In this document: positions 2,634 through 50,360 of the stretch, one piece after another
Position numbering within the stretch: position 1 is the first letter of the stretch
Layout of the letters: every line of letters begins with the position of its first letter
Assembly: GCF_000194135.1 (NCBI RefSeq)
Contig: NC_015318.1
Span: 634,501 to 698,500, forward strand
From: Hippea maritima DSM 10411
GTDB taxonomy: Bacteria; Campylobacterota_A; Desulfurellia; Desulfurellales; Hippeaceae
Reading direction: 5' to 3'
DNA length: 64,000 bases
Notes under the pieces: model-generated
Told to the model about the DNA's origin: nothing
What the model saw: only the letters and a program-made list of their open reading frames with translations
Databases searched by the model: none
Translations under genes and position numbers: made by a program

Positions 2634-2657
2634 CTGTAACACAAGTTCTTAATATAG
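2634..2657 (+). promoter_or_regulatory. Element regulon motif, site 1
   Basis: CTGTAACAC (2634-2642), six bases, then TTAATATAG, a slightly diverged right half. It precedes the HD-GYP/traN operon by about 40 bases. Confidence 0.65.
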
Positions 2658-2699
2658 AGAGGCGGTAAAAAAGAGAGGCGAGAACACGTAAAAAGGAGA

Positions 2700-3287
2700 A
2701 TGGTCATGGTTAGTGTTGGTGGTTTTGATTTTATGCACACATACGTGAGGCTGCACGGGAATCTCGTCGCTTATTACGCCAATACCCTTTGCAGGGCCTT
2801 TGGTATTAGCCCTAGAAAAGTCGTGTTTGCCGCTTACTTTCACGACTACGGGAAGTATAAGTGGGACTATGATTTGTTTACAAAACCAGAGTTAAGTGAA
2901 GAAGACTGGGAAGAGATTAAAAAACATCCCAAAGAGAGCGTTGAAATAGTTTTGAAAATGATGCCTGAGAGAAAGGATTTACTTCTTGAGGGTTCGCCAA
3001 GCATACTGGATTTGATTTACCTGCATCATGAAAAGCCCGACGGGTCAGGATATTACGGAGTGAAAGACATACCGGTTGAGTCCGCGATCATTTCAATTAG
3101 CGACATATTTGACTCGTGTGTAAGCGATAGACCATACAGAAAGACAATGTCGGATAATGATGCTATTGAAATAGCGCTACAGCTTTACGGAGGTTATCTG
3201 GATTTACACGGTTATTCTTCTGATGTGGCACGGGAAGTATTAAAAAAATCTGTCACCAAAATAACAATACTCAGTACAGCGGGGTGA
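2700..3287 (+). CDS. HD-GYP-like c-di-GMP phosphodiesterase domain protein
   Basis: A 195-residue cytoplasmic protein made almost only of an HD-GYP-like domain, the class that hydrolyses cyclic di-GMP. Visible motifs are 'HDYGK' (about 48-52), a 'KHP' turn, 'HHEKPDGSGYYG' (GYY instead of GYP) and a 'SDRPYR' tail. The change at the GYP tyrosine-proline and the lack of a sensor domain leave activity open. An AGGAG ribosome site precedes the ATG at 2700; the ATG at 2706 is an alternative. It is followed after 4 bases by traN and probably co-transcribed from site 1. The element also encodes a GGDEF protein at 37372-38298. Confidence 0.75.
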   Translation: MVMVSVGGFDFMHTYVRLHGNLVAYYANTLCRAFGISPRKVVFAAYFHDYGKYKWDYDLFTKPELSEEDWEEIKKHPKESVEIVLKMMPERKDLLLEGSPSILDLIYLHHEKPDGSGYYGVKDIPVESAIISISDIFDSCVSDRPYRKTMSDNDAIEIALQLYGGYLDLHGYSSDVAREVLKKSVTKITILSTAG

Positions 3288-3291
3288 GAAG

Positions 3292-5318: not shown

Positions 5319-5343
5319 CTGTAACACCCCTCCCTATATATAG
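5319..5343 (+). promoter_or_regulatory. Element regulon motif, site 2
   Basis: CTGTAACAC-CCCTCC-CTATATATAG preceded by an A tract. The right flank GAGGAGGGGTGTT mirrors the left side, giving a near-perfect dyad that also supplies the ribosome site of the methyltransferase 14 bases downstream. Confidence 0.8.
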
Positions 5344-5356: not shown

Positions 5357-6097
5357 ATGGATTGGAAAGAAAGTTTTCCGAAAGAGTATCGTTGCTATGA
5401 GACGGCAAACGGCATTCTTTATAACGCCGATTGCCTGGAGTTGCTGCCTTGCATACCTCAAGAAAGCATAGATCTTATACTCACCGACCCGCCCTATGGC
5501 GTTGGTTCGAACGAGAGAAACGGCATTAACTACAAAGACGAATTCTACAACGTTGATGAAGTATCAAGTTTTCTTTACGGTAGTTTAAAAGACAACTCAA
5601 GGGCCTATGTTTTCACTGCTCAAAAAACATTCATAGACGTTGCCAAATGGTTTGAAAACAACGGCTTTTACCTGCATCAAACCCTGATATGGTATAAGAA
5701 AAATCTTGCCGGTGGAACAAAAAAGAGAACTTACGACTTTACCTCAACTTATGAGCAAATCCTCAATTTCCACAAAGGCAAACCTCACTTACTCAAAAAA
5801 GACCACCTTTCTGACGTGCTCGAATTCCCTCAACCCCAATCAAACTACACACTCGATAAACGCTATCACATTCACCAAAAGCCTCTAAAACTAATTGAGT
5901 ACCTAATCTATGTGTCCACAAACGAAAATGACATAGTCTTCGATCCTTTTGCAGGCTCAGGCACAACTGCCGCCGCAGCTGAGAGACTTGGAAGAAGATG
6001 GGTAGCGATAGAAATTCAACCAGAATACTGTCAGATAGCAAAAGAGAGAATTAGGCGATTCGCAAGTATAAAGCCTTTAATAGGCTTTGGATGTTAG
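5357..6097 (+). CDS. DNA methyltransferase, N4/N6-amino type
   Basis: A 246-residue enzyme that would methylate adenine or cytosine amino groups in DNA. Motif IV 'DPPYGVG' (about 42-48) precedes motif I 'FDPFAGSGTT' (about 195-204), the order of beta-class enzymes, and only a short target-recognition region lies between. DPPY favours N6-adenine. The start is the ATG inside the right arm of site 2, with a GGAGG upstream. No restriction enzyme is adjacent, so it probably acts alone, for example against host restriction after transfer. It begins an operon with a DUF4406-like and a RuvC-like gene. Confidence 0.8.
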   Translation: MDWKESFPKEYRCYETANGILYNADCLELLPCIPQESIDLILTDPPYGVGSNERNGINYKDEFYNVDEVSSFLYGSLKDNSRAYVFTAQKTFIDVAKWFENNGFYLHQTLIWYKKNLAGGTKKRTYDFTSTYEQILNFHKGKPHLLKKDHLSDVLEFPQPQSNYTLDKRYHIHQKPLKLIEYLIYVSTNENDIVFDPFAGSGTTAAAAERLGRRWVAIEIQPEYCQIAKERIRRFASIKPLIGFGC

Positions 6098-6468: not shown

Positions 6469-6928
6469 TCCCGGCACAAAACATTGCGCTTTTGCTTTAT
6501 ATAAAGACGGAAAATTGATTGCAACATACAAAGTCAAATCCACTTTTGACAAGCTCAAAGGTTTTTTCTCAGCGCTGAATATAAAAAACTATATTTTTGT
6601 GATTGAGGATCAATATCTCAACCTCAACGTCAGAACGCTCAAGGCTCTGGTTGAAATTCGAGCTACCGTTTTAACCCTTGCACGTATATACAACGCATCA
6701 AACTGCATCGTCGTTCCGCCCCAGAAGTGGCAAAGAACAATGCTCGGCGTGCACATAAAATCAAAAAGAGAACAAAGAAAAAATGCATCTCGCCTGGCGG
6801 CTTCGGAGATTGCAAAGGAGAAAGTCAAAGACAGCGATGTTGCAGATGCTATCTGCATAGGCGATTATGCGAATCGTATTCACTCACTGCAGGCTCAGCA
6901 AAACTGTAACACACCTCTCTATATATAG
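6452..6928 (+). CDS. RuvC-like Holliday junction resolvase
   Basis: A 158-residue protein with an RNase H-like fold signature: 'ACDPGTKHCAFAL' at the N-terminus (first catalytic Asp), 'FVIEDQYLN' (catalytic Glu) and 'DSDVADAICIGDYA' near the C-terminus (paired Asp). This matches RuvC-type nucleases that cut four-way DNA junctions. The start is TTG, supported by an AAAGGAGG site. The last codons overlap site 3 of the regulon motif. It may resolve recombination intermediates made by the element's own annealing system at 19-21 kb. Confidence 0.7.
   Translation: MILACDPGTKHCAFALYKDGKLIATYKVKSTFDKLKGFFSALNIKNYIFVIEDQYLNLNVRTLKALVEIRATVLTLARIYNASNCIVVPPQKWQRTMLGVHIKSKREQRKNASRLAASEIAKEKVKDSDVADAICIGDYANRIHSLQAQQNCNTPLYI
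6904..6928 (+). promoter_or_regulatory. Element regulon motif, site 3 (pilus operon)
   Basis: CTGTAACAC-ACCTCT-CTATATATAG. With its right flank it forms a perfect 26-bp palindrome (6911-6936) centred on the TATATA. It lies 38 bases before traA and heads the main pilus operon. Confidence 0.8.
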
Positions 6929-6966
6929 AGAGGTGTAAAAGAGCCCAAAAAACTCGTTAAGGGGGT

Positions 6967-14143: not shown

Positions 14144-14624
14144 AAAAGGGATAATAACTGCTGCAGTTCTTGTTGTATCTTTAGTTTTTCTACATTTTAT
14201 TTTAACTCATTTATCCTTTTCCGCTACAGACAGCGTAGGTTACCATCTGTTTTACATATCAAAGAATTTTAAAAAAATAAAAAAGCATGACTACGTGCTG
14301 TTTCCTATACACGAAACTAATATCAAAGAAATTCAAAATGAGCTGAAAAAGTTTAAAACGATAATCCTTGTAAAGCAGGTTGCCTGTGTTCCGGGCGATA
14401 GGCTGACAGTTAAAGGCAGGAAGTTTTACTGCAACGGCCAGTATCTCTGCACTGCAAAAATCAGAGCTTTAGACGGCGAAAAAATTAATCATTTTAAGTT
14501 TAATGGTGTAGTTCCTAACGGATACGTTTTTGTTCTTGGTAAGGATGTAAATTCCTATGACAGCAGGTATTTTGGTTTTGTTCCTATTAAAGAGGTTATG
14601 GCGGTTGCTTATCCGATACTGTAG
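14130..14624 (+). CDS. TraF/TrhF-type S26 signal peptidase-like protease
   Basis: A 164-residue inner-membrane protein with one anchor (about 8-28). The S26 catalytic Ser is in 'SATDSVGYHLF' and the Lys in 'ILVKQVACVPGD'. It ends with the family pattern 'NGYVFVLGKDVNSYDSRYFGFV'. Relatives in conjugation systems mature pilin or other exported Tra proteins, and TraA of this operon is the likely substrate. It is the last gene before site 4. Confidence 0.8.
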   Translation: MWKSKKGIITAAVLVVSLVFLHFILTHLSFSATDSVGYHLFYISKNFKKIKKHDYVLFPIHETNIKEIQNELKKFKTIILVKQVACVPGDRLTVKGRKFYCNGQYLCTAKIRALDGEKINHFKFNGVVPNGYVFVLGKDVNSYDSRYFGFVPIKEVMAVAYPIL

Positions 14625-14643
14625 CACAACCTCCTATATATAG
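14619..14643 (+). promoter_or_regulatory. Element regulon motif, site 4
   Basis: CTGTAGCAC-AACCTC-CTATATATAG, one mismatch in the left half. It overlaps the end of the peptidase gene, and its right flank GAGGGG is the ribosome site of the next gene at 14653. Confidence 0.75.
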
Positions 14644-14652: not shown

Positions 14653-15507
14653 ATGAGGAAAGTAGTTCTGATTTTAGCTGTATTGTTTTTAACAGTTATA
14701 TCTGCTAGGGCGGATGTGAATAACTATAACCCTTATCAGGGATGGTTTTGGTATAAGAATCCGCCCAAAAAAGAAAAAAATAAAGATAAAAATAAAGAAG
14801 AAAAATTCACCATGAAAACTTATACGTATAAGCAGTTGTGGAATATGTATCCTGATAAGTTTCAAAAGCTATTGAAATATGCTCTCAGGCAGGCTGTGCA
14901 AAATCCTACTCCACAGAACGTAAAGCAATATCTAATACTGCAGGATATAGCTAGGCGGAAGGCCTACGCTTTTTCAAATGTTGTTGGCTATGTTACGCAA
15001 ACAAACCCCAACTTGAGTTTATATAAGGATTATCCCGAGAACTCGCCGGGCATCAGGATGAGGACTGGTTTAATGAACTACGATGTAGATAAGACTCTGA
15101 AGAGCAATAGAGATGAATACGCCTTACTTTTCTTTTATAAACCCGGTTGTCAGTACTGCGAGATTCAATCCCAAATACTTCGGTATTTACAGGATGAGGA
15201 CGGATGGGAGATTATGCCTATCAATATTAACCAGCGTTATGACGTTGCGGCAAGGTTTAACGTAAAAACCGTTCCGGAAATAATACTAATACATAAAGGT
15301 AGCCCCCAGTGGATACCTGTAGCTGCGGGCGTAATCGCATTAAACAATATAAAAAGAAATATCTATAGGGGAATTATGTATTTTGAAGGCAAGTTGAATC
15401 CCAAAAACTGGAGCATATACCAATTCCAGAAAAACAGTGGATTTGACGTGGACAAGTATCCTGTAGCTCCCGATATGAAATTCAAAATAAAGGTAGAAGA
15501 ACAGTAA
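14653..15507 (+). CDS. traF: TraF, thioredoxin-like pilus assembly protein
   Basis: A 284-residue exported protein with a signal peptide (about 1-20) and a C-terminal thioredoxin-like domain: 'FFYKPGCQYCEIQSQ' (CQYC, about 172-175) and 'VKTVPEIILI'. The N-terminal pattern 'YQGWFWYKNPP' is typical of F-type TraF. F TraF lacks the CxxC pair, while many relatives keep it, so redox activity is plausible here. It starts the second half of the tra operon under site 4. Confidence 0.85.
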   Translation: MRKVVLILAVLFLTVISARADVNNYNPYQGWFWYKNPPKKEKNKDKNKEEKFTMKTYTYKQLWNMYPDKFQKLLKYALRQAVQNPTPQNVKQYLILQDIARRKAYAFSNVVGYVTQTNPNLSLYKDYPENSPGIRMRTGLMNYDVDKTLKSNRDEYALLFFYKPGCQYCEIQSQILRYLQDEDGWEIMPININQRYDVAARFNVKTVPEIILIHKGSPQWIPVAAGVIALNNIKRNIYRGIMYFEGKLNPKNWSIYQFQKNSGFDVDKYPVAPDMKFKIKVEEQ

Positions 15508-15523
15508 AAAGGAGGTAGAAGTT

Positions 15524-15880
15524 ATGGCAGAGATGACAAGAGAGGAAAGGGAAAAGTTCTTTCAGACATTGCAGGAAAGAAAGGAAAACCTTGCAAAGCA
15601 AAGAGAAACAAGGGTCGTGTTTGCAAGGACAAGGGACACTGAAGCCGCTTTAGCTATTGTTCAGTCTGCAGACAGGGCTTTAAACCTGTTAAGAAGGAAT
15701 GCAGGGTTGAGATTTCCGTTTGAGGAAGTGGCCAGACATGTAGAAGCATACAAGAAAGCGGTATTGGATATGCACAAGACTGTTGATGAGATGTGTAAGT
15801 ATGCCGGAGTGCCTTACAGGGTGCCTGCGTGGGTTAGAGAGCAGCTGGGCATGTCTGAGGAGGACGATGCTGAGGCGTAA
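15524..15880 (+). CDS. Small charged protein in the tra operon
   Basis: A 118-residue, highly charged, mostly helical protein with no signal peptide or membrane segment and an acidic C-terminus. Strong AAGGAGG site and tight packing between traF and traW. No family recognised; it may be a cytoplasmic accessory of the transfer system. Confidence 0.6.
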   Translation: MAEMTREEREKFFQTLQERKENLAKQRETRVVFARTRDTEAALAIVQSADRALNLLRRNAGLRFPFEEVARHVEAYKKAVLDMHKTVDEMCKYAGVPYRVPAWVREQLGMSEEDDAEA

Positions 15881-16565
15881 AATGGCGTTCAATTTAGGCA
15901 GGGCTGCGGTTAGGGCTATGTCCCTTACCGCGGCTTTGTTTGTCCTGGTTATAGCGGTTAATAGCAGTCAAGCATGTGTAAACCTCGGTACTTACGGGGC
16001 AACCTGGCCTATTAAGGAGCAGGATGCCTTAAAACAGATTTTAAGCGGATTAAAGCACTACAACTATCGTAAAATATTAAACAAGCAGGTTTTCACCAGT
16101 GCTTTTCACCGATACGAGGAGAGGTTATCGACAGACCTACCAAGATCAAAAAAACATAAAATCTACACGGTGGATATGACATACACCCTACCTTTTGATA
16201 TAAGAGATGCTAAGGGCAGGATTATTTATCCCAGAGGTTATAAGTTCAACCCATTAGATTACATAAAAGTGCCGTTTGTTTATGTAATTATAAACGGCAA
16301 CGACAAAAAACAGGTGAGCTGGTTTATGCACTCAAAATACTATAATAAAGTAAAATCAATGCTTCTTATCTGCAAAGGGGACGTTATCACGCTCGAAAAG
16401 AAGATAAAAATGCCTGTCTTCTATGCAGATAAGAGGATTATCAAGAAATTTAACTTAAAAGTCGTTCCTTCTATAGCTTACCAAAAGGAGGATAAGTTTT
16501 ATGTGGAGGAAATACCTTTACCTGATAATAGCACTGGCAATCATATCGGCAAGCCTACCAACTAA
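15867..16565 (+). CDS. traW: TraW
   Basis: A 232-residue exported protein. After the signal peptide comes 'VNLGTYGATWPIKEQD', the hallmark start of mature TraW, a periplasmic protein needed for F-type pilus assembly. A later 'VPFVYVIINGND' and 'KMPVFYADKRIIKKFNLKVVPSIAYQ' also fit. The ATG at 15867 follows GAGGAGG; the ATG at 15882 is an alternative. It overlaps traU by 65 bases. Confidence 0.85.
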   Translation: MLRRKMAFNLGRAAVRAMSLTAALFVLVIAVNSSQACVNLGTYGATWPIKEQDALKQILSGLKHYNYRKILNKQVFTSAFHRYEERLSTDLPRSKKHKIYTVDMTYTLPFDIRDAKGRIIYPRGYKFNPLDYIKVPFVYVIINGNDKKQVSWFMHSKYYNKVKSMLLICKGDVITLEKKIKMPVFYADKRIIKKFNLKVVPSIAYQKEDKFYVEEIPLPDNSTGNHIGKPTN

Positions 16566-17499
16566 AAGCTATGCTGTATGTAAGGGTAAGTTTTTTAATC
16601 CTATCACAGATATAGACTGGTGGGGTATATTTCCCGTTAAGATAGGCGGTATTACTATATTTAAGACTAAGATAGATGCACCTTCTGTACCGGGTGGTTC
16701 ACCTATCTGTATTTGCGGTAAACCTCCAAATATAAAATTTGGTATTAAGGTGAGTTTTTGGGATCCTGCTAGATTAGTTGAAACGGTAAAAGATGCTTGG
16801 TGTTTTCCAACCCTTGGGATGAGCGTATCTAGTGGTGGTTTTCTTAATGGTTCAGCAAGCGCTAAAGACAGAAACTCCAATGAGGTTTTTGCTCAGTCCC
16901 ATTACATATGGATGGATATTTTTGCTTTAGTAGGGTTGTTTATAGATTATTCCTGCTTTAGCCCTCTGGATTTCGATATAGCCTACATTACAGAAGTTGA
17001 TCCGACTTGGAACAGCGATATAACAGCTTTTCTTCTTAACCCAGAGGCGCTGCTTTTCGGCAATCCTATAGCTCAATTGGTCTGTTCAGCGGATTCCGTT
17101 TCATCAAATATGGGTATTACGGTAGATCCTTTATTCTGGTGCATGGGCAGCTGGGGAAGTGCGTATCCTCTAACAGGACACTGGAGCGGACGCGACAAAA
17201 CAACCGCCAATGCAGCAATAGCCGCGAGGATGATTTATAAGCTTTCAAGAGAAGGGCTGCTCTGGGATGGTGCGGTTAGTTACTGCTATAAGTTTCCAAC
17301 GCCCATCTGGATGAAAAGCCATTATAGGCTACAAGAAGCAAGACCTTTAAGGAGTCCATGGGTTTTACCTTTAGGCAGAAGCGATCTTATATGGGGCGCA
17401 GGCGCTAATCCTCCAATAAGCGGTGGGCATGGGGCCGAGGATAACTTCCTGTGGATTTTGTTTAAAGAGAGGCTGTGTTGTATGGGGATAGGGCTGTAG
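16501..17499 (+). CDS. traU: TraU
   Basis: A 332-residue Cys-rich exported protein with a signal peptide (about 1-25). The conserved TraU features include 'CKGKFFNPITDIDWWGIFPVKIGG', 'CICGKPP', 'FWDPARLVETVKDAWCFPTLG' and a late 'YCYKFPTPIWMKSHYRLQ'. TraU is a periplasmic protein required for DNA transfer more than for pilus assembly. An AAAGGAGG site sits before the ATG within traW. Confidence 0.9.
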   Translation: MWRKYLYLIIALAIISASLPTKSYAVCKGKFFNPITDIDWWGIFPVKIGGITIFKTKIDAPSVPGGSPICICGKPPNIKFGIKVSFWDPARLVETVKDAWCFPTLGMSVSSGGFLNGSASAKDRNSNEVFAQSHYIWMDIFALVGLFIDYSCFSPLDFDIAYITEVDPTWNSDITAFLLNPEALLFGNPIAQLVCSADSVSSNMGITVDPLFWCMGSWGSAYPLTGHWSGRDKTTANAAIAARMIYKLSREGLLWDGAVSYCYKFPTPIWMKSHYRLQEARPLRSPWVLPLGRSDLIWGAGANPPISGGHGAEDNFLWILFKERLCCMGIGL

Positions 17500-17567
17500 T
17501 TATGGGTTATGGGATATGGTGGTGCATGCCGAACAGACACTGCACAGGTGAATGAGTTAATGAGTGA

Positions 17568-18386
17568 ATGGGTGAGAGGATGAGGAGAATAACTATTTTA
17601 ATCTTAACCTTGTTGTTCTTTGCAGGTGTTGGTTACGCAAGCGACAATAGTTCCTTTAAAGTATCTCAAATTCCAGAAATACAAAAACAAGCTTTAAAGA
17701 AATATAAACACATCAATACCCAAAATAAATACTCAAAACAAATGCAAGAAGTGGGTAAACAAGCCTATCAAACTTACACAAACAACAAAAAAATGCAGAC
17801 AATGCTCAATACTTACGAGAATAATATTCTTTCTACAAAACAGTTTAAAGCTGCTTTTAAGAAATACGCGCCTGGGTGGTTTCAAAAGGGGAAGAAAAGG
17901 ATTAGTTTTTCCCGCATAGGCGCTCATGACAAGCTCTTTATCTTTATATCCTCTTCCATGCCTATGAGCGAGATAAGACGGTATGTTCAGCAGGTTGCAT
18001 TAATTAATGAGCCAGATGTACAAATTGTCATAAGAGGCTTTGTGGATGGTGTTAAGTATTTAAAGCCAACTATTAGGTTTTTTTATAAAGCAGCCAAAAT
18101 AGATCCCAACTGTGAAGGATTAACAAACTGCAAGTTTTACAATGTATCTATAGATGTAAACCCCTTGCCATTTAGAAAATACCATATAGAAAGAGTCCCT
18201 GCCTTTGTATTTGATCCCAATTTTCAAAAAATCACTAAAACCAACATAAACGACAACGACTCCGCTTACAAGCTTTATGGAGATGTAAGCCTCGAATATG
18301 CAATTAAAGTCTTATACGAAAACAGCAGGTATATCAGGCTAAAAGAGTTTTTGGATAAGCTCAAGAGCAAGGCGTTTTATCGTTAA
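17568..18386 (+). CDS. trbC: TrbC (F type)
   Basis: A 272-residue exported protein: signal peptide, helical segment (about 25-115), then the TrbC domain 'LFIFISSSMPMSEIRRYVQQV' and 'IVIRGFVDGVKYLKPTI', ending with 'HIERVPAFVFDP'. TrbC works with TraW in F-type pilus assembly. The start is uncertain between the ATGs at 17568 and 17580. The 68-base gap to traU carries ATGAGT-like short repeats. Last gene of the run. Confidence 0.85.
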   Translation: MGERMRRITILILTLLFFAGVGYASDNSSFKVSQIPEIQKQALKKYKHINTQNKYSKQMQEVGKQAYQTYTNNKKMQTMLNTYENNILSTKQFKAAFKKYAPGWFQKGKKRISFSRIGAHDKLFIFISSSMPMSEIRRYVQQVALINEPDVQIVIRGFVDGVKYLKPTIRFFYKAAKIDPNCEGLTNCKFYNVSIDVNPLPFRKYHIERVPAFVFDPNFQKITKTNINDNDSAYKLYGDVSLEYAIKVLYENSRYIRLKEFLDKLKSKAFYR

Positions 18387-24951: not shown

Positions 24952-24976
24952 TCATATATAGGGAGATGTGTTACAG
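24952..24976 (-). promoter_or_regulatory. Element regulon motif, site 5
   Basis: On the minus strand CTGTAACAC-ATCTCC-CTATATATGA, preceded by an A tract, 45 bases upstream of the 352-aa protein gene. Confidence 0.75.
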
Positions 24977-27714: not shown

Positions 27715-27775
27715 AAAAAATACCTCCTTAAAACATATTTGAGGCCAAGCCCATCGTGATGGGCTTGGTTCCCCT

Positions 27776-27800
27776 CTATATATAGGGAAGGGTGTTACAG
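27776..27800 (-). promoter_or_regulatory. Element regulon motif, site 6
   Basis: On the minus strand CTGTAACAC-CCTTCC-CTATATATAG followed by AGGGG, upstream of the HU operon. Confidence 0.8.
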
Positions 27801-27805
27801 TTTTG

Positions 27806-34383: not shown

Positions 34384-34408
34384 CTTTATATAGGGGGTTG
34401 TGTTACAG
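34384..34408 (-). promoter_or_regulatory. Element regulon motif, site 7
   Basis: On the minus strand CTGTAACAC-AACCCC-CTATATAAAG, 32 bases before the traH ATG. An IS200/IS605 element lies directly upstream. Confidence 0.75.
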
Positions 34409-34476: not shown

Positions 34477-35687
34477 CTTCCTGCTTCAACGGTTGCCTTT
34501 TGGCATACCTCCACAGGCTCTACGGGCTGTTCCATCCCTGATAATGCTGTTTTTAGTATATTTATACTTGCATTTATATCTCTGTCGTGAGTGGTATTGC
34601 AATAAGGGCAAGTCCATTTTCTTTTTGATAATGGAAGTTTATCTATTTTATAACCACATATATTGCAAGTTTTTGAACTTGGAAAAAATTTATCTATTTG
34701 AATTAGTTTTGCCCCATACCACTCACTTTTGTATTTTAGAAATTCTACAAATTTAGACCAGCTTACATCACTTATTGATTTTGCAAGATAGTGATTTTTT
34801 TGCATATTCTTAACTGACAGATTTTCTATTGCTATTAGTAAGTATTGCTTGGCTATCGCAATACTTACTTTATGAAGAAAATCATTTCTTTGATTTAAGA
34901 TTTTTTCGTGAAATTTTGAGATTTTTGCTTTTAGCTTATACCAGTTTCTTGAATGTAAAACTTTTCTTGACAATCTTTTTTGAAGAATTTTTAATCTCTG
35001 TTCCGTTTTTCTAAACCATCTGGGATTAGATATTTTTTCTCCATTAGAGAGAATTATAAAATGCTCTAACCCCATATCTATTCCAATTGCCTTGAAAGGC
35101 TTTTTAGCTATTTTTATAACTTCTTCAATTAGAATAGATATGAAGTATTTGCCATTTTTTCTTGATATAGTGGCTTGTTTGATTTTACCATTCTGTGATA
35201 ATGGTCTATGAAATTTTACTTTTATTCCCTCTTTTAGCTTTGGAATATAAACTTTATTTTCTTTTATTTTTACATTTTGAGGAATATTGAATGATTGATA
35301 ATTGTTTTTTTTAGATTTGAATTTTGGAAATCCAAGTTTTAATGCTTTTGCTTTTTGTTTTGGAGTATTTGCTCTTGCAAGTGCAATTTTTCTCTCTTTT
35401 ACTACTTCTTTACTAAAAGCTCTTTTATATGCCTTGATAAGATTATGGATTGATACTTGAAGAGATTGAGAGTTTATTTGATTTAGCCAAGAATAATTTT
35501 CATTCTTTTTAAGCTCTTTAAGCTCTTTTTGAAGAAGTGTTTTATTTGGAAGTTTGGTATCTTTATATTTACCCCAAAAACAGTTATACACAAATCTACA
35601 AGCCCCAAAATGATTTTCTAAAAATTTAACCTGTTCTTTATTAGGATAAATTCTATATTTATAAGCTCTTAATATAGTTTTTTGCAA
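34458..35687 (-). CDS. tnpB: TnpB, RNA-guided nuclease of IS605
   Basis: A 409-residue TnpB. Split RuvC residues are in 'AIGIDMGLEHFI' (Asp), 'LIAIENLSVKN' (Glu) and 'THDRDINASINI' (Asp). The zinc ribbon 'CNICGYK'...'WTCPYC' is complete. The N-terminal HTH region 'AYKYRIYPNKEQ' is typical. No frameshift is seen, so it could be active. TnpB cuts DNA next to a transposon-specific motif under RNA guidance and so favours retention of the IS. Confidence 0.95.
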   Translation of the reverse strand: MQKTILRAYKYRIYPNKEQVKFLENHFGACRFVYNCFWGKYKDTKLPNKTLLQKELKELKKNENYSWLNQINSQSLQVSIHNLIKAYKRAFSKEVVKERKIALARANTPKQKAKALKLGFPKFKSKKNNYQSFNIPQNVKIKENKVYIPKLKEGIKVKFHRPLSQNGKIKQATISRKNGKYFISILIEEVIKIAKKPFKAIGIDMGLEHFIILSNGEKISNPRWFRKTEQRLKILQKRLSRKVLHSRNWYKLKAKISKFHEKILNQRNDFLHKVSIAIAKQYLLIAIENLSVKNMQKNHYLAKSISDVSWSKFVEFLKYKSEWYGAKLIQIDKFFPSSKTCNICGYKIDKLPLSKRKWTCPYCNTTHDRDINASINILKTALSGMEQPVEPVEVCQKATVEAGSPDYNL

Positions 35688-35737
35688 AAACTCCCTTTTT
35701 TTATATAATTTTACAACAAAAATAAAAAGGTGTCAAT

Positions 35738-36142
35738 ATGAAAAGAGCCCATCATCACGCTAAATATGATTTGAAATATCATTTAGTGTTAGTTACAAAA
35801 TATAGAAAAAAATGTATTACAAAAGATATGCTAAATAGACTTGAAAAGATAATAAGGGACATTTGCAACAGATGGGATGTAGAATTATTAGAATTTAGTG
35901 GAGAAGAAGACCATATTCATTTACTTATATCAGCTCATCCGTCAATGGAATTATCCAAATTTACAAATAATCTAAAAACTGTATCTTCAAGACTTATTAG
36001 AAAAGAATTCAAAGAGCATCTATCTAAATTTTATTGGAAACCTTATTTTTGGACAAGAGCTTATTTTATAGCTACAACAGGTGGAGCACCACTTGAAGTT
36101 ATCAAACAATATATAAAATCCCAAGAAAAACCAGAAAAATAA
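35738..36142 (+). CDS. tnpA: TnpA, Y1 transposase of IS605
   Basis: A 134-residue HUH single-strand transposase: 'EEDHIHLLISA' holds the His-x-His pair and 'EVIKQYIKSQ' the catalytic Tyr. Full length. It moves the IS as single-stranded DNA. It is not a conjugative relaxase, although it uses the same chemistry. Confidence 0.95.
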   Translation: MKRAHHHAKYDLKYHLVLVTKYRKKCITKDMLNRLEKIIRDICNRWDVELLEFSGEEDHIHLLISAHPSMELSKFTNNLKTVSSRLIRKEFKEHLSKFYWKPYFWTRAYFIATTGGAPLEVIKQYIKSQEKPEK

Positions 36143-36214: not shown

Positions 36215-37186
36215 TTAAACCTCCTCTTTTTGAGCAAAAATAGGATCTTCAAACCTAATTTTTGATTGTTCTACATATTCCTTTTTTAACTCGCACGCTA
36301 TCCATCTTCTATTTAACATTTCCGCAACATAACCTGTTGTATTACTTCCGGCAAAAGGGTCTAAAACTAGATCATTTTCATCTGTTAAAAACTCAATAAA
36401 AAAAGCTGCTACTCCCGGATGCATTCTTGCAGGATGCGGTTTTATTCCAAGTTCTCTACATCTTTTCAAAAAATAATCATTAGAAGATGAATTGGAAAAA
36501 CTCAAAACATTATAGGGAAGTCTAACCTCTCTTTTTTCATCTAATGGTTTCATTTCAAAAAAATTATGAGCTATACTTCCTCCATTATTTTTTAGGAAAC
36601 TTTTTTCTCCTATATAATGTTCCGAAGGTCTCTTCCCAGAGTTATATTTTTTTCTTTTTAATAAGTTTTTCATGCTTGAACTGTAAGGTCGCAAAACTTT
36701 CCTATTATCTGCTTTTGGAAAATCGCTTTTTGCAATCCACCAAACATGAGTATAGCTATCAATGGTTCTTATTCTATTAACCGTAACCCATTGAGCCGGT
36801 GATGGTAGTCTTGAAGGATTATAAACTATAAATTCCTGAATGAGTCTTAAATTTGCATAAGGATGCCTTACCAGATTCATAAGAGCTTCTAAGTGTAGTA
36901 AAGATTGAACTGGCCTGTTTTTTTCCCAGACATTTCCAATCTCTATAACTAAAGAACCATTTTCTTTTAATAAACTGGAAAAAATAGGGGCAAATGACTC
37001 AAACCATTTTAGATATTCTTCGCCGGTTAAATTCCCGTACCGCTTTTTGTTATTGAGTGGAAATGGTGGTGAAGTAATTATTAATTGAATTTTATTTTCA
37101 TAATGTTCTTTTAGGTATTCGCTGTAAACTTCGGTAAAATTACCTAGAAATAATTCCCCTTTTTTTGTTGTATAAATTCTTTCCAT
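36215..37186 (-). CDS. DNA methyltransferase, N4-cytosine-like
   Basis: A 323-residue enzyme. Motif IV is 'ITSPPFPLNN' (SPP[FY] points to N4-cytosine) and motif I is 'LDPFAGSNTTGYV' near the C-terminus, a beta-class order with a recognition region between (about 100-250). The ATG at 37186 with GGAGGT is preferred. No restriction gene is adjacent. Probably a protective solitary methylase; second of two in the element. Confidence 0.8.
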   Translation of the reverse strand: MERIYTTKKGELFLGNFTEVYSEYLKEHYENKIQLIITSPPFPLNNKKRYGNLTGEEYLKWFESFAPIFSSLLKENGSLVIEIGNVWEKNRPVQSLLHLEALMNLVRHPYANLRLIQEFIVYNPSRLPSPAQWVTVNRIRTIDSYTHVWWIAKSDFPKADNRKVLRPYSSSMKNLLKRKKYNSGKRPSEHYIGEKSFLKNNGGSIAHNFFEMKPLDEKREVRLPYNVLSFSNSSSNDYFLKRCRELGIKPHPARMHPGVAAFFIEFLTDENDLVLDPFAGSNTTGYVAEMLNRRWIACELKKEYVEQSKIRFEDPIFAQKEEV

Positions 37187-37371
37187 CTCTACCTCCACCC
37201 CTAACATAAAGGGCGTTTTCTCCACCCGAAGGCGGATTAGGTGATTTTCATTTAGCCGAATTGTACACAAATTTAAAACCAAAATCAAAAAGTGCCTTTA
37301 GATAGCGAACTACACAGTTCAGGGCTGTAGTCTATGTCGTTTTTGTAAAGCTCAAAATATTAAACCTTAGG

Positions 37372-38298
37372 TTAAGATTTGCAGTACGGACAAAGGCCAC
37401 AGATAATCTTCGGTATCTCATGCGCATCGCGAATCTTTTTCTTGTTCTCGTACATATCTACTTCTATATCTGACAAATACCTGTTTAAGACAGTGTCCAT
37501 ATTGCTTTCTTCAGTGTATGAATAGGTATTCCTATCAAAAACCTTATACGCCACCGACACACTCACAAACAGCCCGCACGGCGCCTGCCTTGTAACTGCC
37601 TCTATACGCTTTGCTATTCTGTTTGCAAGCTCCTCGTTTATGCCGAAAGCAACACCTATGAACTCATCCCCTCCAACACGGTAAACATTGCCGTAGCCAA
37701 GGAATATGCTCTTGATTTCGCTTGCAATTGACCTCAGCACCGCATCGCCCATGTGATGGCCAAGAGTGTCGTTAACAACCTTAAAGTTGTTAAAGTCCAT
37801 GTAGAACACATACAGCGGTATATCTTTCGTGAGCATAGTTTTTAGGTTAGACCGCAAGTGCCTGAACAATTCTCTTCTCGTAAAACAACCGGTTAGCTCA
37901 TCTTTGTCTCTGTTCTCATCCTCGTGTTTAAGCAAAAGCGAATATGCGGGGTAAACAACATCCATTGTCCTCTCTACGGTTCGCACAACGTGATCCTCAT
38001 CAATCTCGGGATCGTCTAAACCTACATACCAGCCTAAAGAGGTTCTGTAGATAAAAATAGTATCAAATACAAAACTCTCGCCTTTCTCCAATGGCTTAAT
38101 GTTAGACACACTTATCCCATCCTTTGCCAGAGAGCTTCTTCTTCGTCTCATTGAACCAATCACAGCGTCCATGTAATCCGTCGTCTCAGTACAGACAAAA
38201 CCTCCTCTTGATCCTGTCCTTGCCGTTAAATCATAAACAAAAATCTGCAAAACATCGGACGGCGACTCGCTTTCAGCCAGTATTTTTTGCAGTATCAT
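37372..38298 (-). CDS. Diguanylate cyclase (GGDEF)
   Basis: A 308-residue soluble protein: an N-terminal sensor-like region (about 1-130) and a GGDEF domain (about 135-290) with 'DELTGCFTRRELF', 'YMDFNNFKVVNDTLGHHMGD' and intact 'RVGGDEFIGV'. It should make cyclic di-GMP. It ends with 'CGLCPYC', a possible small metal- or redox-site. It overlaps the membrane protein gene before it by 4 bases. With the HD-GYP protein at 2700 the element could tune the second messenger of its host. Confidence 0.85.
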   Translation of the reverse strand: MILQKILAESESPSDVLQIFVYDLTARTGSRGGFVCTETTDYMDAVIGSMRRRRSSLAKDGISVSNIKPLEKGESFVFDTIFIYRTSLGWYVGLDDPEIDEDHVVRTVERTMDVVYPAYSLLLKHEDENRDKDELTGCFTRRELFRHLRSNLKTMLTKDIPLYVFYMDFNNFKVVNDTLGHHMGDAVLRSIASEIKSIFLGYGNVYRVGGDEFIGVAFGINEELANRIAKRIEAVTRQAPCGLFVSVSVAYKVFDRNTYSYTEESNMDTVLNRYLSDIEVDMYENKKKIRDAHEIPKIICGLCPYCKS

Positions 38299-39838: not shown

Positions 39839-39863
39839 TCATATATAGCTAGTTGTGTTACAA
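39839..39863 (-). promoter_or_regulatory. Element regulon motif, site 8
   Basis: On the minus strand TTGTAACAC-AACTAG-CTATATATGA, preceded by an A tract. It heads the DUF736-like, traT, GGDEF, methylase operon. Confidence 0.7.
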
Positions 39864-43002: not shown

Positions 43003-43027
43003 CTATATATAGGCAGGGGTGTTACAG
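43003..43027 (-). promoter_or_regulatory. Element regulon motif, site 9
   Basis: On the minus strand CTGTAACAC-CCCTGC-CTATATATAG. The ssb leader behind it holds a TAGCCGAG/CTCGGCTA hairpin (42960-42990). Confidence 0.8.
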
Positions 43028-44498: not shown

Positions 44499-46556
44499 TC
44501 AATGCTTTGTCCCTGACGAACAAATTATATCCTTGCCCGCGTTCTCAAGGGTATTCATTATCGTTGCCGCCTCTGCAAATTCATTAATGCATTGACAGTC
44601 AGTTACAACTGTTTCACCTTTAGAGGTATCGTAAGGGCAGGAGTATGATCCGTTATTGTCAGCGCACTTACGGTAGTCAAAGACGTAGGAGTTTGTGGAG
44701 CGGTATTGGGAAGTGTTAGTGTTTGCATAGGCCTGTGTATCCTCTTCAGGAACTTTAACCTTGCATACAAACATGCAACCGTTTTGACTGCCTGCAAACG
44801 GCACGGTTAAGGATCCGCTGTGGTAGCCCCAGGAACCGTTGTCCTCTCTGTAATCTTGATAGCTTGTGCTGCCGAGAGTTGAAGCTGACATAACGTCTAC
44901 ATCTTTGGTCGAATTTACAATTGTATTAGCCCTCTGTTTTGCTTTATCGAAGTTATAGCCTTGTGTTTTGCATACATAAATTCTTTTCTTTTCCCACCAG
45001 TTATAGCAAAAAGTGTGAGGCTGCCAGCCGTTGAATGTCTTGCAGACTTGTCCAGCCGGTACTAATCCTGTAGAAGCGTAGTTGCTCCAGGTTTGTACGC
45101 TGTCAACCCATTCGTCTTTTAGTGTGCAGTTGGAGTCGTTTTCATAAGCCTGACATTGGTCGTCAATGTAACTGCTCACTTCATCCCATCTCTTGCGGTA
45201 AATGTAGATATAAAGATACGATTGAGGATAACCGTTGCAACCGCCAAAGTTGGTGTATTGAGCAAAAATATGCTGCACGCCGTTTGTGGTTCTTGTCGTG
45301 GAGCCGTTAAAGGTGTTTATTCCGTCAGACCAATAACACATAGGCTTCCATACGGTTACCCCATCTATCTGCAAAACAGCACAAGAATCATCGTAAATAT
45401 AAGCGCCGGTGGTGAACTTTCCGCAAAAACGATAGTCAAAACTCTGCCCACAGCCTCCATTTCCTCCCCCTGTTGCTTTTAAATTACATCTACAATGCAC
45501 GCCGGTTTCATCATAATAACAATCAGACATTGAGTTACAGATCGAGGTATCAAACACCTCAGGACAGGTGTCATCGCCCTCTGGGGAGTAGTGATCGCTC
45601 TGTTTTTTATCAATATTCACTATTCTTTTTATGTAGCATGTGTGCTGCTCTATGGGGTTTTTCTGAGCTGCGCCTGAGGTTTCAATGAGGCTGTACATGC
45701 TATTTGGATTTGATTCCTCACTGCTTTCCACAGAACCCGCTGCTGAATACAGGTACCCACCATTAGTTGCATCGTAGTATGTTGACGGATTGGTTGAACC
45801 TGATTGCCATTCGTATTGAGCGGTATCAGCAGGATAATTGGATGGTTGGGGTGCGCTGGTATCTTTTGTTATCTGTCCGTAATAAATTATATCCACAGAA
45901 TTTACCTCAACGCCGGTTACTCTCAGTCTGTAGTTGCCGTTTTTCATCATAGCGGCAACCGCACCGCCACCAATGTCTTTTAAAATAATCGATAGGTTAT
46001 TGCTTGCAAGATTGCTACCGCAAGAATTATTTATGCAGTAACATCCGCCAAAATCGGTAGAAGGTCTTTCTATGAGCTTTAAAAACCCGGAAGAGTCGGT
46101 TGTCCACATATAATACTTGCAATAATCCCATGTGCCTGGGTTGCAGTGTATAAGTCCGTTGGCGCAAATACCAGACACCTCAAAAGGGACTACATAGGAA
46201 TAATTGTAATTATTTCCATCACCAGTATTCTCATAAACATAGACGGGGGATAAATCTCCCGTTGGGGTTGGATGAATTAAAATCTCCAGGATTTTTTTGC
46301 CGCCTGGCGAAGCTATACTGCCGTTGAAAGGGTTTTGCCCATTCAGTGAGTGCATTTGCACCTGTCCACCGCTTGTTGCAGGTGTAAAAATTCTGCTTTT
46401 TAACCCTGATTTACTACCAAGCCTCTGCACAGCGTAATTACCGGCACTCTCACCTGTTGATTGGGCGGAAGAGAACTGTTGAGCTGCGTTGTCGCTTGCT
46501 AAGGCTAAAAACGGCAGGAAAAACACTGCCATCAAGAACACGGCAATCTTTCTCAT
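44499..46556 (-). CDS. Large Cys-rich exported protein, TraN-like
   Basis: A 685-residue exported protein with a signal peptide (about 1-21) and about 35 cysteines. Early text 'SAGNYAVQRLGSKSGLKSRIF' and the long Cys-rich body with aromatic-rich repeats resemble large TraN/TrhN-type outer-membrane proteins, but the TraN C-terminal signature seen in the gene at 3292 is missing. It may be a second adhesin or mating-pair factor with different recipient specificity. Upstream lies a diverged regulon site. Confidence 0.55.
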   Translation of the reverse strand: MRKIAVFLMAVFFLPFLALASDNAAQQFSSAQSTGESAGNYAVQRLGSKSGLKSRIFTPATSGGQVQMHSLNGQNPFNGSIASPGGKKILEILIHPTPTGDLSPVYVYENTGDGNNYNYSYVVPFEVSGICANGLIHCNPGTWDYCKYYMWTTDSSGFLKLIERPSTDFGGCYCINNSCGSNLASNNLSIILKDIGGGAVAAMMKNGNYRLRVTGVEVNSVDIIYYGQITKDTSAPQPSNYPADTAQYEWQSGSTNPSTYYDATNGGYLYSAAGSVESSEESNPNSMYSLIETSGAAQKNPIEQHTCYIKRIVNIDKKQSDHYSPEGDDTCPEVFDTSICNSMSDCYYDETGVHCRCNLKATGGGNGGCGQSFDYRFCGKFTTGAYIYDDSCAVLQIDGVTVWKPMCYWSDGINTFNGSTTRTTNGVQHIFAQYTNFGGCNGYPQSYLYIYIYRKRWDEVSSYIDDQCQAYENDSNCTLKDEWVDSVQTWSNYASTGLVPAGQVCKTFNGWQPHTFCYNWWEKKRIYVCKTQGYNFDKAKQRANTIVNSTKDVDVMSASTLGSTSYQDYREDNGSWGYHSGSLTVPFAGSQNGCMFVCKVKVPEEDTQAYANTNTSQYRSTNSYVFDYRKCADNNGSYSCPYDTSKGETVVTDCQCINEFAEAATIMNTLENAGKDIICSSGTKH

Positions 46557-46596
46557 CCTTATCCTCCTTTATTGTTTTTTATACTCTTCCGCCTCT

Positions 46597-46621
46597 CTTT
46601 ATATAGGAGTTGTAGGTGTTG
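46597..46621 (-). promoter_or_regulatory. Element regulon motif, site 10 (diverged)
   Basis: On the minus strand the right half CTATATAAAG is kept, while the left half is CAACACCTA instead of CTGTAACAC. It precedes the Cys-rich gene. Short ATGGGTA-type repeats follow upstream. Confidence 0.45.
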
Positions 46622-46660: not shown

Positions 46661-49600
46661 TCACCCATGCTTTTCCACCATCATCCTAATCGCTTCCGCA
46701 TAACTTATTCCTTTGGTTTTAACCATTCTCTCTATCTCGGAGTTTTCCTTTGGATCGGATGTAAACAGATAATAGGTGTATTTATCAACTATTAGGCGCC
46801 CTACGCCCAACCCAAACGGCGAGTCGATAAATATCTCGGAATATTTTGGCTTATTACTCTTAACTGTTTTAAGGATTTTCATCACAAACTCATCGTAATC
46901 TATAATCTTATCGTGTTTGGCTTTTTCGAAATCGGGAGATGCAAGCAAGAACTTCCAGGCGCTGTTTGCCCTTATAACGTCGCCTACCTTGCCAAAATTC
47001 TTCAAGTCAAGCAGGGACTGGACAACAACGCTGAACGAACCCCTATACTTTCTTGCCCTTCTGTAGCCCTCTTCAATGACGTCGGCAAATATATCACTGC
47101 TCTCAAGGAACTGCCACGCTTCATCAAAGATAATGAGACGCTTTGAGCTCCTATCAGACAGGTATAAATCCCTCGTTACGGCGTTGATTATCTGCAGGGT
47201 TACAACCTTAAACAGCTCCTTTTGTGGTTTTAAATGCTCAAGCTCCAGAACCGCAAAATCATCATCGGATATATTAAACGTGGATCTGCCGTTAAACCAT
47301 CTACCGTAGTTGCCCTGTGAGGTAAAGTCATAGAGGTTAAAGGCAAGTATTGAGGCAGTGTCTATGTAGAACTCCTTGTTCGGATCGTCTTCAACAAAGT
47401 CTTTGTAGTTTTTAAGAAAATGGTAAATAGTGTTTATATCGGCGTCGTTGCCTTCAGACTGCCATGCAAGCCTGATTGCGTTTTTAATAATTGTGTCGGC
47501 CGTTTCAGCGCGCTCTATGTCTATTTGTCCTGTTGAGGAAAGTATCATCTGCTTGATTATGGCGGCGAGGACTGCAAGCTCATCTTCTATATCGCGAACA
47601 TTCGTGAAAGGATTTATGACTATATCTGATTCTTTTGTAAACTCTAAAAACCTACCGTCAAAGAGATGAGTGAGTTTTTTATAGCTGCCGCCTATGTCAA
47701 TGATCCTTATTTTGTCTCCAGCAGAGAAGTAGTTGAACACGATGTAGTTAATCAGGAATGAGTTGTGATTGATCTGGCCGTCGGCAAAGTAATTGTGCGT
47801 ATCCTCAACGGATACATCGTAAACATCGGCATTCTCGGCAGGCTCAACGGATACTACCTCATCGAAGTAGTGGGTAGAGATGAATTCTTCCCATTCTTTT
47901 AAAGTGTCATTCTGCAAGTATGAGTTTTTGATTATATTAAGAGCATGCTTTCTTGATAACCTTTTGATGCCGTTTTTATATTCCTCAAAAGCAAACTCAT
48001 TACCGTTTTTCAGAAGTATTTCCTGCTCATGCTCATAGTAATATTCACTGTCTTTATATAGAGCAATTAAATCCTCAATAAAAATCTTCGTATATTTTTC
48101 AGGCAACACGTCAATATCATCATTAAAGTCTGTTTTTAAAACCTCATTTAACTTATCCTGTCTCTCCGATTTTATCGCCTTTATTAACCTGAATATTCTG
48201 GCAAATCTTCTTACGCTTGACCCGCTTATAATAAGCACATTCTTACTATCGCCGTTAGTGGTATTTTTAACCTGAACATTGCAAACAACCCCAAAACCCT
48301 GCTCAAGGACGGTTCTAACCTGTTCTGCAAGCTCTTTAGTTGCCAGTGGAATTTCTATTTGATTCTTCTGGCTGTTAATACGAGCTGCAACATCGATCAA
48401 CCCCTCTATAAAGCCCACCCAGAAAGGCTTTGATGCATTCATGGTGATAAAACGAGGAATTTTTTTTGTGGAAAAAGACGTCTCCGTATTATCACCATCC
48501 TTTAGATAATAATTTATAAGTATTTTTTTTATTTTACTGCCACTCTGATTTGGTTTAGCGGCATCTATTGCGTCGGCATACACCAAACCAAACAAATACC
48601 CTACATTTTCATTGCTCCAATTTCCAAATCTCATACAGGAAAGCTCGACGGGAAGAATGTCGCCTTTTTTGAGATCTCTTGCGTGTGTCCATGCAGTATT
48701 TTCCACTTTTAGCCTATGGTCAGGTGTGCACTGAATAACCCTGCCGAATTTGGTTTTTATTTTAACTGTTTTCTCATTTTTAAAGCTAAATGTTTTTAAT
48801 ACTGGTTTTGTGTCGATAGAGCCGTTATTGTCGCTTAAGACTCTATCGCCCTCATGAATTTCTCTTAAATCACAGAAGCCTGTTTCGGTTAGTATTTGTC
48901 CGTCTGTCCTGCATTTTCCTGAGCCAGTTGATGCGGCAACGAATACGTTGTAATTATCCGCATGCTCGTCAAACACATCAACGGATATCAGCTGACCTTT
49001 TCTGCCGTGAAAAAGAAGAACAGGTTCTCCTGCACCTCTAAAATCTGCCTGCAGGGGCGCCATTGTCGCTGCAAGCTCATCCTGCAAAACAAAATCTCTG
49101 TCTATCTTGCGTATATTATCGCCTTCAGTGTAAAGCCCAAAGGGTAGGGCGGATATAAAAAGGATTGGTAATATACCCTTATCTTCCTGCATTGTGAAGC
49201 CGTGTTCTTCCCATATGCGCTTTACCCTTGCTATAGACTGTAGAGCCGTATCATCATCGTAAGCATACATCCAGATAATAGGCAAGACTTTTACAAACCT
49301 TGTGTTATTATCTATCTGATCTATTGCCCAGACAAATTCCTCTTTTTTTCTGGCAAGACTCGGAGCAAGCGTTCCAAAGCCCTGCTGCTGAAGAACAAGG
49401 TTGGTCTTGAGCCCTATTTCTTTTTTGATTTGCGCGTCGTTTTTATAGACGTTAAGTGTAAATATAAATGGCGTTATAATCTGCTCGGCATCGGATGCAA
49501 CACCCCAGATACCACCGATGAGCTGGTTGGTTATAAACGTGTTTAAACCGTCCGAGCCACCCGGGAAAAGCTTGGGTGTGGTGCATTTGTAGATTTTACT

Positions 49601-50257
49601 ACCGACACGTATATCTGATAGCCCCGCTTGAATAACCGTTTCGGAGGTAATGATCTGCTTGTTTATCGGCTTTAGGTCATCGTAGCCTTTTCCCACAATA
49701 ACCCTGTCGTTAAACAGGCGTCTTAGAGTGTTAAGCAACTCACTGACAGGCAGAATTCTCGGATTAAGCCTTGCGCCTGAGAGTATCTCTGTTGCATTGT
49801 ATTTAAAAGCGTCTAAGTCAAGGTCTTTGGCTTTTTTAACAGGAATTTTAATGGCAATAAAAGAACGAAAATACCTTGAAGGAATATCAGATGCCTGCTT
49901 TATGCCTTTTTCTGCTCCCTCAAGCCAGAAATCAGCATACCTTTCAACAGCAAGGTTAATTATGTCATACTGACGGGTTTTTAAATTTTTATAAATATCA
50001 AGTATTGGTTTAACATAAGGATCAGCAAAGAGAATAAATTGAACAACAGAGTCATCAGGAACTAAAGACAATAAGCTTTTGAGCATGTTTATAGTTGTCT
50101 CCCCCATAAAAAAACGGGGAGTAACTTCGTAAATATAACCTATTGTGTCGTCCTGGTTGTAATAAATTTTAAGATTTTCATCGTAAGCCAGATAAGGCAA
50201 ATAATCGCTGAATTGGTTTCTTCTGGTCATGTTTTTAAGTTCTCTTAAGGTAAGCAA
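46661..50257 (-). CDS. traC: TraC ATPase interrupted by an intein
   Basis: A 1198-residue precursor; after splicing TraC would have 814 residues. TraC is the VirB4-like ATPase of F-type pilus assembly. The N-terminal domain has 'DDTIGYIYEVTPRFFMG'. Walker A is split: 'STGSGK' (443-448), intein (449-832), then 'SFLINYIVF'. Walker B is 'RLIIFDEAWQFL', followed by 'RRARKYRGSFSVVVQSLLDL'. GTG or ATG start with AAGG upstream. Function depends on splicing because the P-loop Ser is extein residue +1. It is the only gene under site 11. Confidence 0.95.
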   Translation of the reverse strand: MLTLRELKNMTRRNQFSDYLPYLAYDENLKIYYNQDDTIGYIYEVTPRFFMGETTINMLKSLLSLVPDDSVVQFILFADPYVKPILDIYKNLKTRQYDIINLAVERYADFWLEGAEKGIKQASDIPSRYFRSFIAIKIPVKKAKDLDLDAFKYNATEILSGARLNPRILPVSELLNTLRRLFNDRVIVGKGYDDLKPINKQIITSETVIQAGLSDIRVGSKIYKCTTPKLFPGGSDGLNTFITNQLIGGIWGVASDAEQIITPFIFTLNVYKNDAQIKKEIGLKTNLVLQQQGFGTLAPSLARKKEEFVWAIDQIDNNTRFVKVLPIIWMYAYDDDTALQSIARVKRIWEEHGFTMQEDKGILPILFISALPFGLYTEGDNIRKIDRDFVLQDELAATMAPLQADFRGAGEPVLLFHGRKGQLISVDVFDEHADNYNVFVAASTGSGKCRTDGQILTETGFCDLREIHEGDRVLSDNNGSIDTKPVLKTFSFKNEKTVKIKTKFGRVIQCTPDHRLKVENTAWTHARDLKKGDILPVELSCMRFGNWSNENVGYLFGLVYADAIDAAKPNQSGSKIKKILINYYLKDGDNTETSFSTKKIPRFITMNASKPFWVGFIEGLIDVAARINSQKNQIEIPLATKELAEQVRTVLEQGFGVVCNVQVKNTTNGDSKNVLIISGSSVRRFARIFRLIKAIKSERQDKLNEVLKTDFNDDIDVLPEKYTKIFIEDLIALYKDSEYYYEHEQEILLKNGNEFAFEEYKNGIKRLSRKHALNIIKNSYLQNDTLKEWEEFISTHYFDEVVSVEPAENADVYDVSVEDTHNYFADGQINHNSFLINYIVFNYFSAGDKIRIIDIGGSYKKLTHLFDGRFLEFTKESDIVINPFTNVRDIEDELAVLAAIIKQMILSSTGQIDIERAETADTIIKNAIRLAWQSEGNDADINTIYHFLKNYKDFVEDDPNKEFYIDTASILAFNLYDFTSQGNYGRWFNGRSTFNISDDDFAVLELEHLKPQKELFKVVTLQIINAVTRDLYLSDRSSKRLIIFDEAWQFLESSDIFADVIEEGYRRARKYRGSFSVVVQSLLDLKNFGKVGDVIRANSAWKFLLASPDFEKAKHDKIIDYDEFVMKILKTVKSNKPKYSEIFIDSPFGLGVGRLIVDKYTYYLFTSDPKENSEIERMVKTKGISYAEAIRMMVEKHG
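47762..48913 (-). other. Intein with LAGLIDADG endonuclease in TraC
   Basis: A 384-residue insert starting with Cys449 and ending His831-Asn832, followed by Ser. The splicing blocks are complete: 'CRTDGQILTETG' (A), 'TPDHRLKVE' (B), 'VYDVSVEDTHNYFADG' (F), 'INHN' (G). Two LAGLIDADG-like helices, 'YLFGLVYADA' (about 554-563) and 'FIEGLIDVA' (about 616-624), keep their Asp residues, so homing may be active. Confidence 0.9.
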
Positions 50258-50335
50258 GGCACACCCCCAGCATTCAAAGTTTTTTTGGGCGTTGGGTATG
50301 TAAAGAAACCAGGCAAACTCAAACCCAACCCCTCT

Positions 50336-50360
50336 CTATATATAGGCAGGGGTGTTACAG
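50336..50360 (-). promoter_or_regulatory. Element regulon motif, site 11
   Basis: On the minus strand CTGTAACAC-CCCTGC-CTATATATAG, preceded by an A tract, about 80 bases upstream of traC. Confidence 0.8.

Follow-up and report, generated by a model that had tools for sequence, protein, structure and literature searches.

The window analysed here, a stretch of 64,000 nucleotides from Hippea maritima DSM 10411, contains an element of 55.4 kb which is bracketed by a 38-bp direct repeat and which, by its anatomy, is an ICE: integrase, att repeats at a tRNA and a T4SS are all present (Table 1). The F-type T4SS genes of the element are TraN, TraL, TraE, TraK, TraB/TrbI, TrbC, TraH, TraG and TraC, and TraT, SSB, ParM and HU are encoded as well, while no relaxase was recognised among the element proteins. 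The TraC ATPase (46661-50257) is split by an intein with a LAGLIDADG domain and is adjoined by a 685-aa Cys-rich secreted protein (44499-46556) without a family match, which by eye resembles a second TraN-like adhesin. An IS200/IS605-type pair, TnpA (Y1_Tnp) and TnpB, occupies 34458-36142, an insertion just upstream of the predicted TraH promoter. In the literature searched, no description of Hippea conjugation or of ICE regulation in this lineage was found.

Table 1. Features of the ICE and of its sister regulon (window positions unless contigs are named).
Feature	Position	Strand	Remarks
attL	2434..2471	+	38-bp direct repeat, tRNA-Leu(taa) 3' end; identical 38-mer at 57863-57900
Late motif, one-base deletion in box B	2634..2658	+	heads HD-TraN operon, start codon 2700; model E=6.6e-9; orthologous perfect site L244:294
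Late motif, exact	5319..5343	+	heads DNA MTase-DUF7768-DUF3882 operon (5357)
Late motif, exact	6904..6928	+	overlaps 26-bp palindrome 6911-6936; heads pilin-TraL-E-K-B-V operon (6967)
Late motif, 1 mismatch	14619..14643	+	heads operon 14653-18386: TraF-like, TraW-like, TraU-like, TrbC (TrbC by Pfam)
Late motif, 2 mismatches	24952..24976	-	heads P0005 (24907), 352 aa, no function assigned
Late motif, exact	27776..27800	-	heads HU gene (27711); 5' leader hairpin next; orthologous sites L231:3539, L243:1593
Late motif, 1 mismatch	34384..34408	-	heads TraH-TraG (34367); orthologous site L242:281
Late motif, 3 mismatches	39839..39863	-	heads DUF736-TraT-GGDEF-MTase (39769); leader hairpin; orthologous site L242:5825
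Late motif, exact	43003..43027	-	heads SSB-ParM (42925); leader hairpin
Degenerate half-motif, downstream half only	46586..46613	-	before TraN-like 685-aa gene (46556); E=7e-4
Late motif, exact	50336..50360	-	heads TraC (50257); directly downstream of terminator-like hairpin 50404-50382; orthologous sites L232:8176, L238:203
P0003, last early-operon gene	50974..52047	-	no function assigned; 33% identical homolog in G008 element
DnaB-like helicase, early operon	52060..53439	-	
P0001, 155 aa, sigma region 4-like, candidate activator	53423..53890	-	NCBIfam, hhalign
P0002, 79 aa, Xis/AlpA-like small protein	53887..54126	-	no family match; by eye and position; 73% conserved in L232
P0008, Ner/Cro-like HTH repressor	54259..54525	-	PHROG 769 transcriptional repressor, E=1e-10
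Early promoter (predicted), TTGACA-N17-TATAAT	54565..54593	-	12/12 consensus
CI/ImmR-like HTH repressor	54620..55195	+	HTH_19/HTH_3
ImmA-like Peptidase_M78	55209..55715	+	Pfam E=1e-23
Tyrosine integrase	56531..57718	-	Phage_integrase E=5e-36; right end of element
attR	57863..57900	+	second copy of 38-bp repeat; integrase just inside
G008 sister regulon loci	L296/L297 (G008:C169), L259/L261 (G008:C184)		

A shared sequence of about 35 bases stands ahead of nearly every gene group needed for spread. It is made up of box A, TGTAACAC, with its lead-in, and, at a fixed spacing of 6 bp, box B, CTATATATAG, with a purine run AGAGG. The core CTGTAACAC-N6-CTATATATAG gives nine matches in the window at three mismatches or fewer, compared with none in 100 shuffles, and these are the nine sites that the first-pass annotation had listed, on the same strands and with the N6 spacing exact. 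Only 14619 had been marked there as carrying a mismatch, which is right for that site, but 34384, 24952 and 39839 are mismatched too. Among the diverged copies proposed, 2634 holds and 46597 is retained as a half-match, but 18419 and 23837 were undetected by the sequence model described below at E<=10 and are rejected as copies. Each of the ten good window sites faces a start codon that has a ribosome-binding site, as the earlier claim of orientation toward the next operon would have it, and the motif end lies 9 to 78 nt from the start codon. The operon assignments are corrected in Table 1 for 5319, 6904 and 2634, the last being the site that heads HD-TraN. The A-rich stretch reported ahead of the motif is real, but is better termed a W-rich lead-in ending in C. 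At 14619 the CTGTAG of the motif doubles as the stop codon of the preceding gene. A long ORF (27439-28653) runs through the motif and fuses an AAA_15 remnant to HU, apparently a chance effect; the HU gene itself starts near 27711.

The same nine sites are the only matches to the pattern, at three mismatches or fewer, in the 1,694,430-bp genome. A sequence-only model was built from 31 sites (10 in the window and 21 on MAG contigs); in the window it finds the nine sites plus 2634 at E<=7e-9, scores that are partly given by construction for these ten training sites, which the genome-wide contrast is not. The best model match in the genome outside the element is partial (E=0.07), and CTATATATAG followed by RGRG is found in the genome at element sites only. 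All ten sites are inside the ICE and no comparable genomic site lies outside, in line with the earlier remark that the motif is absent from the flanking chromosome; a scan of the genome and of related elements, proposed at the same time as a check, gave, in the genome, sites confined to the element and not spread over the chromosome. The aligned motif holds about 50 bits, compared with the approximately 18 needed to mark ten sites in the genome. For 29 of the 31 sites, the 300 nt that follow on the same strand contain a start codon with a Shine-Dalgarno-like sequence, as opposed to 4 of 31 on the opposite strand. Matches in other bacteria and in IMG/VR outside Hippea-type contigs are single, mostly without the full motif or the purine run, and are taken as chance; grouped with them is L097, which has two mismatches to the full 24-mer. 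Matches to CTATATATAGAGAG in G007 and G009:C26 have unrelated surroundings (by eye a GroEL gene in G007) and were put aside in the same way.

In the related Hippea MAGs the motif is present in the form CTGTAACACAACTCCCTATATATAGAGAGG (G009-G012), and orthologous operons have kept it while the flanking DNA has diverged. Over eleven orthologous site pairs the identity is 98% in box A, 87% in box B and 61% in the N6, and in the flanks it is 33% upstream and 26% downstream. Among the MAG elements the N6 hardly varies (AACTCC); in the window element it is variable. The MAG bins are fragmentary, and those of G011 and G012 are also without other element genes. In G010 (L234:3778) the motif stands directly ahead of an integrase-like gene, so that integration may be under the same control as the late genes in that genome.

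The early region of the element is organised differently from the late operons. A predicted sigma70 promoter of perfect consensus sits between the CI-like gene and the Ner-like P0008, and the early operon comprises the Ner-like gene, the Xis-like gene, P0001, the DnaB-like helicase and P0003, closing at the terminator-like hairpin directly before the TraC motif (50360). No copy of the late motif was found in the CI/Ner control region. The canonical sigma70 promoter occurs at the early operon only, whereas the late sites are without a usual -35, and between 24800 and 44200 no sigma70-type consensus match on the correct strand overlaps any late site. In the TATATA of the late motif the final -10 position is not the customary T, and if TATATA (box B positions 2-7) is taken as the -10, box A would extend from about -27 to about -20, a shorter distance than that of a normal -35.

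A sister element provides a further comparison. The G008 MAG contains an F-type ICE which has integrase (64%), DnaB (63%), P0003 (33%) and Xis-like protein (46%) in common with the window, and in which the slot of P0001, between the xis-like gene and dnaB, is occupied by P0011, of 219 aa. The TGTAACAC motif was not found in the G008 ICE. A parallel regulon with TTGTTAAAAA-N6-CTATATATAG-AGAGR occupies five places, traH, ssb and parM among them, with none in shuffles; it was traced via weak half-matches of the model, a prior repeat scan having given no signal. In all five, TTGTTAAAAA-N6-(C)CTATATATA or a near variant of it is followed by the purine run, hence box B and its N6 distance have stayed the same and box A has changed. 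We infer that C169 and C184, separate contigs of one bin, form one element. A sixth copy of TTGTTAAAAA, with GTATAATTTAAG, is located at C184:11356 (-), upstream of the CI-like gene of the sister ICE. When the early genes are compared, essentially between two element types, the kind of box tracks the P0001/P0011 slot, perhaps joined by the Ner-like gene, and does not follow integrase, DnaB, P0003 or Xis. This swap of box A points to an element-encoded activator that would switch the genes for spread on together. P0011 was suspected by eye to be a sigma factor, a suggestion dropped after profiles gave no support and the predicted fold proved unusable.

By its position and its similarities P0001 is the leading candidate for such an activator. 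It matches the NCBIfam models SigK (E=9.7e-4) and sigma70-ECF (E=8e-3) in region 4; these profile matches to a sigma region 4 HTH are weak (E=1e-3 to 8e-3), all below the curated cut-offs, and there was no match in Pfam. With hhalign, P0001 aligns to the Hippea sigma region 4 with E=4.5e-4 and a probability of 33%; the same comparison with two further sets of small HTH proteins gave E=0.035 and E=0.49. The fold prediction is of low confidence (pLDDT 55), and Foldseek ranks sigma chains first at E about 1, which is no evidence by itself. The similarity covers residues 39-125 of the 155 aa, and sigma region 2, which recognises the -10, was not found in P0001. A relation to sigma factors is on these grounds suggestive. 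A relative of P0001 in L232, 49% identical, shares a 10-kb contig with a motif-headed TraC, beside a replication module different from that of the window. No P0001 homolog was found in the fragmentary bins of G011 and G012, which both have the motif, nor in plasmids, phages or viral contigs. The Ner-like gene also co-occurs with the motif, at two loci.

Specificity, orientation, comparative footprinting, the missing -35, the restriction of sigma70 to the early operon and the sister swap all speak for the view, already put forward in the first-pass annotation, of a predicted element-wide promoter class requiring an activator or special sigma. In our opinion the motif probably marks late promoters used by host RNA polymerase together with an element-encoded activator, likely P0001, which would act after the early operon. 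Box B would then be the melting or -10 region and the start-site neighbourhood for host RNA polymerase, and box A would be bound by the activator and replace the -35. The CI/ImmA-type switch would keep the canonical early promoter off; upon induction the early operon would be expressed, P0001 would recruit host RNA polymerase to all ten of the late promoters, or redirect it there, and the pilus/T4SS, HU, SSB-ParM, TraT and TraC genes would be switched on together. The sequences themselves show the sites, their specificity, orientation and conservation between elements, the swap of box A and the make-up of the early promoter; from these we infer the promoter function of the motif, its use by host RNA polymerase, the role of P0001 as its activator and the succession of events.

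A late promoter of this kind could also depend on another activator, such as the Ner-like P0008, the Xis-like P0002, an unrecognised protein or a host sigma factor. The assignment of P0001 draws on synteny and weak similarity, and small uncharacterised proteins remain in the element; on the other hand, Xis is common to the G008 element, whose box A differs, and the sigma factors of the genome occur also in Hippea genomes without the motif. We consider another activator rather unlikely.

It is also unlikely that the motif is the operator of a CI- or Ner-like repressor over ordinary promoters, with the late genes switched together by derepression. The element does encode CI-like and Ner-like repressors, some copies are palindromic, among them the perfect 26-bp palindrome at 6911-6936 which the first-pass annotation had noticed, and a GTGTTA right arm is present in about a third of the sites. 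However, the dyad through TATATA that had been described for several copies holds for a minority and is not general: the right arm is unconserved, and no covariation or compensatory changes between the motif arms were found over the 31 sites. Left and right arms pair at 48.1% of positions over the 31 sequences, compared with 47.6% after shuffling, and registers slid by +1 to +3 pair about as well as the true one. Since pairing equals that of shuffles and slid registers, a strict operator dyad, like a general RNA hairpin, is unsupported and is rejected as the nature of the motif. Further points against an operator are that the CI/Ner control region is without a copy, that the -35 expected of an unassisted promoter is missing, and that the Ner-like gene is apparently truncated in L248, whose genome has the motif (on contigs not linked to it). 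The earlier proposal that the promoter is combined with an operator thus does not stand as a general feature.

T7-like promoters are long and over-conserved and end in TATA plus purines, and the TATAG-AGAGG and about 50-bit conservation seen here recall T7/SP6 promoters. A promoter of a phage-type single-subunit RNA polymerase would fit the excess of information, the sharp motif boundaries and the purine-rich start region. It is nevertheless a very improbable reading, since no protein of the window matches an RNA polymerase, the large ones being T4SS, helicase, transposase and TraN-like Cys-rich proteins; Pfam RNA_pol was unmatched in the genome, although no control matched either, and the rejection for want of a candidate gene carries this weak control with it. 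Unlike T7-like promoters, the motif falls into two separable parts, and box A is exchanged from one element to another.

Least probable of all is a transcribed RNA element with a hairpin hiding the ribosome-binding site, for the strongly complementary arms at 5319 and 6904, with a Shine-Dalgarno-like run in the 3' arm, are offset by the pairing results above and by a left half that is near-invariant without its partner. Hairpins are also seen in the leaders of HU, DUF736-TraT, SSB and some MAG genes, where they are strong (z down to -5) and start no more than about 5 nt from the motif end, and many short leaders give no hairpin signal. Most of those at L231:3539, L243:1593, L244:6204 and window positions 39862 and 43026 are built in part from the GGTGTTA of the motif. 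The position of the leader hairpins looks as if they were the 5'-terminal hairpins of transcripts starting at the motif end, which speaks for the late-promoter reading.

The predicted late promoters can be compared to several known systems. SetCD-type regulons are controlled by a CI-type switch. In the SetCD regulon of SXT/R391 ICEs, a two-protein, FlhDC-like complex acts at a 19-bp box that directly precedes the -35 or lies close to it, and which is thought to offset a missing -35, with nine gene groups or major peaks (PMC4344509). The likeness to SetCD and to AcaCD of IncA/C plasmids lies in an element-encoded master activator (here a candidate) and in a repeated box before many tra operons, as seen here in ten oriented sites before most of the transfer operons. 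The differences are that only 6 bp separate box A from the TATA box, that the sequences are unrelated and that one protein, sigma-region-4-like, is the candidate; no FlhDC-like activator was found by Pfam, NCBIfam or PHROG in the early-operon and other element proteins scanned. The Hippea system would thus work like SetCD/AcaCD but, judged from its sequences, is no member of that family.

In T4 middle promoters (MotA/AsiA sigma appropriation) the box of a phage-encoded factor takes the place of the -35 and acts with host RNA polymerase at a -10; the MotA box is centred at -30 (PMC6755090). A like arrangement is predicted here, but with TATATA as the -10 the centre of box A would lie near -24, and the two are compared by geometry, not sequence. 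The phage late regulators ArpU, RinA and Ltr have sigma-4-like domains and usually serve one or few late promoters. They resemble our candidate as small HTH activators of the early region that turn on late genes, and no similarity to regulators of this type was detectable in PHROGs.

With P0001 as candidate activator, the predicted late promoters would make up a master switch for conjugation, open to testing, in a thermophilic lineage of the Campylobacterota. Between sister elements one box has been swapped and the rest of the promoter kept, a specificity-change experiment made by nature. It could reveal by what means a small sigma-like protein directs host RNA polymerase to new targets, and what keeps the circuits of co-resident elements apart. 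More tentatively, there may be a family of ICEs with exchangeable, sigma-fragment-like specificity proteins (P0001, P0011) which give host RNA polymerase private promoters, composed of a constant CTATATATAG-purine half and a swappable box 6 bp upstream; if so, each element would fire the late genes that it carries itself and leave those of a sister in the same host alone. Two N6/N4 DNA methyltransferases stand under late motifs (5357-6097 and 36215-37288), and a GGDEF protein (37372-38298) and an HD-domain protein (2700-3287) belong to the late regulon, which suggests that cyclic-nucleotide signalling could be tied to transfer.
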